From positions 1 through 64,000 of the forward strand of contig NZ_LRML01000008.1 in the NCBI RefSeq assembly GCF_001647285.1: 64,000 nt of DNA, in the 5' to 3' direction. The stretch comes from Rufibacter roseus (GTDB taxonomy: Bacteria > Bacteroidota > Bacteroidia > Cytophagales > Hymenobacteraceae). The notes beneath the pieces are model-generated. The model searched no databases and had not been told where the DNA came from. It was given only the letters and a program-made list of their open reading frames with translations. Below, piece after piece: positions 38,030 through 42,949 of the stretch; position 1 is the stretch's first letter, and every line of letters starts with the position of its first letter. The position numbers and the translations under genes are program-made.

Positions 38030-38118
38030 TAAGGGGTGGCAGAAGCATTATCGCCTGCTATAGGTGGTCTTCGTTAGATCCTTCGGCTAGCGCTCAGGAT
38101 GACCGTTGAAGAGTGGGA

Positions 38119-38181
38119 CCAGGAAGGGGTGGGTCTACATGTGTAAACATCCCCCTTCGCCCCCTACAAAGGGGGAGTATC
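38119..38181 (+). repeat. Solo copy of the DUF559-element terminal repeat
   Basis: The core 38140-38181 (TGTGTAAACATCCCCCTTCG..AAAGGGGGAGTATC) matches the right end of the element at 42865-42905 with only a few changes. The similarity continues about 20 bp further left (GGGTCTAC region). It is in the same orientation as the right end. No nuclease gene is attached, so it is either a non-autonomous copy or the remnant of an excised one. Confidence 0.85.
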
Positions 38182-42376: not shown

Positions 42377-42406
42377 ATTCAAATAAACATTGCAGGAGCA
42401 CTACCC

Positions 42407-42471
42407 GATACTCCCCCTTTGAAGGGGGCAAGGGGGATGTTACACAAGCAGATCCAAGCGTTGCTGAACAA
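42407..42471 (-). repeat. Left inverted repeat of the DUF559 element
   Basis: The 40-bp core 42407-42446 (GATACTCCCCCTTTGAAGGG and on to TGTTACACA) is the reverse complement of the right end with one gap and one main difference. Weaker similarity runs on to 42471, stopping 3 nt before the nuclease ATG. CCCCCTT can pair with either of two AAGGGGG copies. Confidence 0.85.
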
Positions 42472-42474
42472 AAG

Positions 42475-42843
42475 ATGCCCAACAAAATCATTCCATACCG
42501 GCCAGACCTTAAGGAACGAGCGAAAGAGCTGAGGAACAACAGCACGTTGGGAGAAATACTGCTCTGGAATGAACTGAAAGGAAAATCGCTAGGAGTTGAA
42601 TTCCACCGTCAGGTGCCACTATTTGATTATATTGTTGATTTCTTCTGTCATGAACTGCTATTGGCTGTTGAAGTGGACGGTGACAGCCATGACCATAAAA
42701 TAACCTATGATGAAAATCGGCAGAGAGCACTACAGGCGTATGGTGTGAAATTTCTCCGCTTTACCGATAAAGAGGTAAAGCAAGAGATGCCGTATGTGGT
42801 GGAAACCTTATGGCATTGGGTGCAAGAGAATCGGCAAATGTAA
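42475..42843 (+). CDS. DUF559-family (PD-(D/E)XK-like) endonuclease-domain protein
   Basis: The 122-residue protein is a stand-alone DUF559 domain, a Vsr-like member of the PD-(D/E)XK nuclease fold. Visible features are the helix ELRNNSTLGEILLWNEL, FHRQVPLFDYIVDFFC with Asp55, and LLAVEVDGDSH with Glu66 and Asp68, followed by the conserved tail VKFLRFTDKEV. The active-site acids look intact. The reading frame extends upstream into treZ, but ATG 42475 gives a start typical of the family and sits just inside the left inverted repeat. No methylase or partner gene is near, so a restriction role is unlikely. Its biochemical role is not known; cutting at the flanking repeats is inference. Confidence 0.88.
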   Translation: MPNKIIPYRPDLKERAKELRNNSTLGEILLWNELKGKSLGVEFHRQVPLFDYIVDFFCHELLLAVEVDGDSHDHKITYDENRQRALQAYGVKFLRFTDKEVKQEMPYVVETLWHWVQENRQM

Positions 42844-42905
42844 TCCGCAATGCGTGGACACTCCTGTGTAAACATCCCCCTTGCCCCCTTCAAAGGGGGA
42901 ATATC
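42841..42905 (+). repeat. Right inverted repeat of the DUF559 element
   Basis: The core 42865-42905 (TGTGTAAACATCCCCCTTGC and on to AATATC) mirrors the left end. Similarity extends inward to the nuclease stop codon, so the gene fills the whole space between the ends. Confidence 0.85.
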
Positions 42906-42949
42906 TGGAATGCATGGGAAAGAAGGATATCTCTAAATATTTGGGAGAT

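Follow-up and report, generated by a model that had tools for sequence, protein, structure and literature searches.

DUF559 nuclease genes framed by inverted hairpin units suggest a little-recognised kind of minimal mobile DNA

A nuclease gene and its flanking units between treZ and treY

The window analysed here, a stretch of 64,000 nucleotides, lies on contig 38 of a 5.1-Mb genome whose nearest named DUF559 relatives (among the best 80 of 476 loci) belong to Rufibacter. In the intergenic DNA between treZ and treY, it carries a DUF559 nuclease gene of 122 codons (42475..42843, forward strand) that is enclosed by two copies of a short hairpin-bearing repeat, here called the A-type unit. The left arm is one such unit on the reverse strand (42407..42468), and the right arm is another on the forward strand (42843..42905); both edges were taken from the consensus of 26 genomic copies. 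Bounded in this way, the arms reach about 62 nt each, close to the inverted repeats of about 65 bp that the initial annotation had placed around the gene. Matched pairwise, the two sides form an inverted repeat over 38 nt (42404-42441 with 42871-42908, 95% complementary). Read outward from the gene, the left arm consists of a box (CATCCCCC), a linker, the hairpin CCCCCTT-CA-AAGGGGG and the ending AGTATC. The right unit overlaps the last base of the stop codon (42843), and so the right repeat does start at the stop codon as first described, while the distance from the left repeat to the ATG, first given as 3 nt, becomes 6 nt with the consensus boundary. The frame of the gene is open further in the 5' direction (202 codons from 42235), and its start was set at 42475 after its relatives. 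There is no second gene between the arms.

A third copy without a gene, initially put at 38119-38181, is indeed present. It is a solo A-type unit on the forward strand, in the orientation of the right arm, with its edge at 38118..38181. Directly before it (38078-38117), as before many other A copies, sits another repeated module, CGCTCAGGATGACCGCAAAAGAGAAGG or similar, and together they make up compound repeats.

The Vsr-like PD-(D/E)XK fold that the initial annotation had ascribed to DUF559 agrees with both profile and structure searches. The window protein matches PF04480 (DUF559) with an E-value of 5.7e-27 and 94.2 bits, against a gathering cut-off of 20.6. Its profile matches to solved structures are PDB 3hrl (E 8.7e-22), an endonuclease-like protein of N. 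gonorrhoeae, and 3r3p (E 4.5e-4), the catalytic domain of the homing endonuclease I-Bth0305I. The same two structures are the top Foldseek matches (3r3p_B, E 5.4e-4) of an AlphaFold model with a mean pLDDT of 88.3, in keeping with a Vsr/EDxHD-like form of the fold. Four positions (D55, E66, D68 and H72) are invariant in all 23 aligned rows, and we take the putative catalytic residues to be among these conserved acidic and histidine positions. The model also weakly resembles mitoribosome proteins of T. gondii and Tetrahymena (Foldseek ranks 5, 9, 10 and 13-15), a likeness that we presume may be to the Vsr-like, RNA-binding RAP domain.

Within the genus, the treZ-treY gap could be read in 15 of 16 genomes, the window's own included. 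A DUF559 gene sits in the gap in two of these (G000 and G013), A-type units without a gene are found in three (G010, G003 and G014), and the remaining ten gaps are free of the four unit types. Divergence of the intergenic DNA keeps the precise joints from being read, and no base-exact empty site was seen among the 15 readable gaps. Other dispersed repeats fill treZ-treY gaps (L152-L154, L156, L157, L159 and L160), e.g. those of the CCAGTTTGTAACTGGC and CGGACACGAGC types. In several gaps the CGGACACGAGC-type repeat is preceded by AGGAATGCGTG or a near match, and AGGAATGCGTG also starts the A unit.

Repeat units and nuclease genes within and across genomes

The 26 copies with a TTCG linker in the window's own genome share the conserved stretch ATCAGgAATGCGTGGACctGCtgGTGTAAACATCCCCCTTCG-CCCCCTTCAAAGGGGG-AgTaTC. 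In these copies, conservation ends about 6 nt to the right of the hairpin, and leftward it fades about 42 nt before the hairpin. The A core pattern has 58 exact matches in the 5.1-Mb genome, against none for the reversed pattern, and a second core has 10 copies, again against none for its reversed control; the arms and units are therefore not due to chance. In other words, the genome holds many extragenic palindromic units, both solo and in inverted pairs. Of the 12 close pairs seen in own-genome loci, 11 are arranged like the arms of the gene, with hairpins pointing outward and boxes inward, and two of these pairs are themselves the arms of genes. Among the BLAST matches listed, gene-less pairs share their arms, not their interiors, with each other and with the gene-bearing elements.

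Two further DUF559 genes are present in this genome. The first of these (59% identical) has the same framing architecture with the second core, CTCCCCT-CA-AGGGGAG, and the box ACACCCCTCT; copies of this core include two gene-less pairs. The other (44%) has a unit pair downstream only. Read by eye, the foot of the hairpin is without a GTAG/CGTC tag in A and C units; in B units the sequence is CGTC-CCCCTTT, and the CGTC there may be a coincidence.

Framing of DUF559 genes by inverted units is general. We located 152 genes: 80 from named genomes (the best 80 of 476 confirmed DUF559 loci), 69 from the window's family and the three of its own genome. Usable flanks were available for 149 loci, some of them fetched twice, which correspond to 137 distinct genes. 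In 51 of the 78 testable named loci, an inverted repeat common to the two 300-bp flanks outscores all control placements within that locus, and in 33 of the 78 (from the best 80 of 476) the inverted-repeat score is at least 18. Across all loci, 85 of 149 reach this score, or 77 when the 137 distinct genes are counted. Of 503 other ORFs from these loci, 7 do so; this control set was not made distinct, and at least one of its seven high scorers (L091, 366 bp) is the DUF559 gene itself. The remaining 64 of the 149 loci fall below the threshold.

The arms share one format, i.e. a box with a C-run, a short linker and a hairpin with a C-rich 5' arm. The cores found in them are CCCCCTT, CTCCCCT, GTCCCCT, CCCCTCC, CCCCTCT and CCCCCCT, and in one Acidobacteria and two Ignavibacteria loci (L106, L107 and L130) the linker is itself a hairpin. 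Eight of 31 matching records in a plasmid collection were examined; inverted units stand on both sides of the gene in Deinococcus (score 48.5), Pseudanabaena (53) and Picosynechococcus (17), the repeats beside the N. gonorrhoeae gene are direct, and the other four of the eight have no two-sided match.

Other arrangements were also seen. In a B-type group of eight labelled loci (L033, L217, L223, L232 and L241-L244), the unit lies just downstream of the gene, not around it, and is a pair where checked (L033, L241 and L242). Several DUF559 copies contain stop codons (L084 and L095, with matches in G017, G028, G035, G038, G041, G042, G051, G058 and G060), as expected of decaying mobile genes. Some DUF559 domains (L234, L238 and others) are part of much longer open frames, of 450-1440 codons, apparently as fusions to larger proteins.

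Each nuclease kind tends to carry its own matching repeat. Among 60 typed loci, the left and right arms agree in core in 57 (49 of 52 when counted by distinct gene), where the chance value is 0.20. On a FastTree phylogeny of 129 proteins, of which 99 typed rows were used (27 untyped and 3 mixed rows were dropped) and in which 51 of 126 inner branches are open, the core type changes 14 times, against a mean of 58.8 and a minimum of 51 in 300 shuffles. The window's own genome holds two framed genes with different cores together with further units of each core. Cores can nevertheless switch, since the window gene and its sister L070 are A-type, while most other genes of their clade are C-type.

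Unit numbers in related genomes and variation among E. coli strains

Units were counted in a set of 60 genomes of the family, with A and B units taken together and CT-type units left out. At least five units occur in 23 of the 25 genomes with a close DUF559 gene, against 6 of the 35 without one (Fisher 6e-9), 'close' meaning E <= 1e-33, a limit that was set after a gap was seen in the list. When two arms are subtracted for each close gene, the figures are 22 of 25 against 6 of 35 (4e-8), and over the 60 genomes the number of units follows the number of close DUF559 genes with a rho of 0.81. Within one genus (g3) alone the association is weak (Mann-Whitney p 0.028), and part of the family-wide signal may thus be shared ancestry.

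For single types the threshold was three units, since one unit could be satisfied by the gene's own arms. GT-type units reach it in all 5 genomes with a GT-clade gene and in none of the other 55. C-type units do so in 9 of 11 genomes with a C-clade gene against 7 of 49 without one found, a clade being called absent when it is not among the loci fetched. These number 72, namely one per genome, the window genome's own three and 40 picked, mostly the closest, from at least about 160.

Together, the 22 genomes of genera g5 and g6 contain 4 units, though most of these genomes have more distant DUF559 genes and Y1 genes. Six genomes are rich in units without a close gene: G006 (54 units), G034 (31), G004 (28), G050 (25), G022 (14) and G027 (6). 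For G004 no DUF559 match was obtained at E 1e-10, and G006 holds just a distant DUF559 gene, flanked by an inverted repeat of its own (L271, score 41). In such genomes the nuclease may have been lost while the units stayed, or the units may come another way. The initial annotation had counted two patterns against a mobile element: nuclease and repeats at the same place in all relatives, and repeats in genomes lacking the nuclease. The combined pattern is not what was seen: the place is not shared, as 2 of 15 readable gaps have the gene, and the other half occurs in part, in that the six of 35 genomes just named have repeats without a close DUF559 gene.

A DUF559 gene of E. coli K-12, ycjD, is followed by a unit and contains part of another in its 3' end, with units on one side only. 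Of 5426 genomes, 3362 match the sapF-ycjD-fabI stretch over 80% or more of its length. When the unit served as a permissive query (E up to 10), each genome gave between 1 and 34 places (median 18), and in 5377 of the 5426 one of these spans at least 80% of the query. The median is 20 places in 25 chromosomes with a full-length ycjD-adjacent match and 7 in 14 without, in a comparison of 40 evenly drawn rows (one plasmid row was dropped) in which the query came from that very locus and kinship was ignored. Genomes without ycjD were considered as empty sites and rejected; upstream of fabI, the three looked at have an RND efflux subunit and a TetR-type regulator instead (L189, L190 and L193).

Other sites in the species can be compared between strains. 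The unit-bearing allele is covered to at least 80% in 2089 of the 5426 genomes at pstA-pstB, 1623 at recX-recA, 785 at rhaD-rhaA and 4545 at tusA-zntA. Alleles with and without units are found at the first three of these four readable sites, and tusA-zntA gave no clean empty allele; units therefore come and go within the species. Two empty alleles were read at pstA-pstB, each 92 bp shorter than the filled one; an 8-bp direct repeat, ACACGGTT, borders the additional DNA and could also mark a deletion. At recX-recA, the filled allele has 190 nt in place of 16 nt in the empty one (read in K-12 and one other strain). Strains with the short allele include K-12, BL21, O157 and O2:K1, and for this reason insertion appears more probable here than repeated loss. 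The rhaD-rhaA comparison pairs one short allele with a filled allele that has two units. No common target duplication or single joint signature was found at the E. coli sites read. A unit at wcaA-wzc (5 of 5426 genomes) was rejected as a recent insertion because the other listed genomes matched the unit only, not its flanks.

The ycjD-adjacent unit is probably BoxC, judging by the placement of BoxC near fabI and pst and not by compared sequences. BoxC is seemingly 56 bp long and present in 32 copies, according to the consulted part of PMC2267715.

A candidate mobile element and its alternatives

The framing of the genes, the matched cores of their arms, the agreement between core type and clade, the dosage of units with the gene and the polymorphism among E. 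coli strains are direct support for a gene-unit pairing. We consider it probable that this pairing is a minimal mobile element of the REP/RAYT kind, in which a DUF559 nuclease, framed by its own inverted units, takes the place of the HUH transposase. As such, it suggests a little-recognised kind of minimal mobile DNA, with movement that would be driven by the nuclease. What we infer is that the nuclease recognises and cuts the unit and that the host copies it, along with the order of these steps. In particular, the nuclease would recognise a folded or duplex form of its own unit (C-rich box, short linker and C/G-rich hairpin) and would nick or cut at the unit's foot. A new site would then receive either a lone unit or the DNA lying between two cuts, copied by host repair or replication. 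Copies bearing the gene would be autonomous, and solo units and gene-less pairs would spread in trans by means of the type-matched nuclease, as RAYTs are thought to do for REPs and BIMEs. A repeat-spreading element with a nuclease and MITE-like solo copies had been proposed from the window alone; the repeat family tied to the nuclease, the solo units and the MITE-like pairs are borne out, and spreading by the nuclease is the part that we infer.

The nuclease might act differently, as a free-standing homing endonuclease that cuts gene-less unit pairs, after which gap repair copies the gene between the arms and the units spread by some other means. This seems unlikely to us, even though the second-best fold match is the homing endonuclease I-Bth0305I, gene-less pairs of the same geometry exist and six unit-bearing genomes are without a close gene. 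The consulted part of PMC9403480 also places a DUF559 gene in the EDxHD homing family. Under homing, however, unit numbers need not track the nuclease gene and its type, yet they do. Moreover, in two unit-poor genomes of genus g4 the gene is present and the units are little more than its arms: G035 has two CC-type units, which frame its gene, and G039 has three of the A type, of which two are arms and one is extra.

A second alternative keeps the nuclease close to the units without making it the agent of their spread, i.e. it would guard or process them in repair, replication or silencing. Vsr-type nucleases can serve in repair. A Caulobacter DUF559 Vsr-like protein, too, is tied to the SOS response in cells without a methyltransferase, according to the consulted part of PMC12907096. 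We nonetheless find guarding improbable, as it does not predict exact framing by inverted arms, the patchy presence of the gene in the readable treZ-treY gaps (2 of 15) or genes with stop codons that look like decaying mobile copies.

We likewise find it improbable that RAYT or IS200/IS605 transposases spread the units and that the DUF559 gene is a passenger caught between two of them. The window's genome has six Y1 genes, unit number correlates weakly with Y1 genes over the 60 genomes (rho 0.32, p 0.012), and the consulted part of PMC3733652 attributes the movement of known GTAG REPs to RAYTs. Yet a search of up to 600 bp from the matched domain gave no unit at any of the 35 Y1 loci examined (of 145 matches), while 45 of the 72 family DUF559 loci fetched have one at this distance, 23 of them on both sides. 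A looser scan of 1.5 kb on each side of the six own-genome Y1 loci found no units either. Y1 genes are, in addition, present in 25 of the 31 genomes with fewer than five units, and core type tracks the DUF559 tree. A RAYT origin of the units was rejected on this Y1-locus control. A terminator function alone was set aside, as it leaves the framing and the type matching unexplained.

The proposed nuclease-driven element can be set beside several known systems. With REP/BIME repeats and their RAYTs it shares short palindromic extragenic units, which occur solo and in inverted pairs at high copy number, and one small nuclease-type gene with units of its own on either side. In RAYTs, transposase and repeat types are matched, as nuclease and unit are here. 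The enzyme differs, being of the Vsr-like PD-(D/E)XK type and not an HUH tyrosine enzyme, and the 35 Y1 loci examined are without these units. EDxHD homing endonucleases (I-Bth0305I, PDB 3r3p) have the same catalytic fold, but the DUF559 gene stands between hairpin repeats of which there are tens of copies, and the window gene is intergenic (treZ-treY) rather than in an intron or intein. MITEs and insertion sequences also have terminal inverted arms and gene-less derivatives, whereas here there is no transposase, and the E. coli sites read lack a consistent target duplication. CGTC-tagged REPs, including dRS3 of Neisseria, are likewise palindromic repeats. A dRS3-like inverted framing of the Neisseria DUF559 gene was not found; the flanks of the N. 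gonorrhoeae gene share instead a direct repeat of about 113 nt.

Intergenic palindromic repeats are common in many bacteria, and some families have no known moving agent; the consulted part of PMC3733652 describes CGTC REPs as being without a dedicated transposase. The DUF559 link gives one set of repeats a candidate enzyme and a testable rule of matched specificity, with ycjD of E. coli K-12 as a test system. If the nuclease alone moves the units, the element would be a very small autonomous one, in which an endonuclease and host repair do the work of a transposase. We entertain more tentatively, at slightly less than even confidence, the broader possibility of a separate class of autonomous mobile DNA. 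Here, a lone Vsr-like nuclease, with no transposase, recombinase or reverse transcriptase, would spread hairpin units across phyla and would be the missing agent of abundant C/G-rich palindromes, including the ycjD-adjacent one (probably BoxC). A literature search that mostly missed subscription journals found no published link between DUF559 and palindromic repeats, and an earlier description is possible. In the same literature, no paper had DUF559 in its title or abstract, and nothing relevant was found on rhizobial RIME repeats.

A smaller observation concerns the form of the unit itself. The box before the hairpin approximates a mirror image of the hairpin's 5' arm. This rule had been noticed before it was tested, and in the resulting post hoc test the observed combination was the best of 720 pairings of six types, while a direct-repeat model of box and hairpin arm was equalled by 99 of the 720. 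In the predicted single-strand DNA fold of the A unit, the G-rich arm pairs with the box, not with the hairpin's own 5' arm, at a stability similar to that of shuffles (z -0.28). Judged by this post hoc test, the mirror box hints that a folded, three-stranded structure may be what is recognised.
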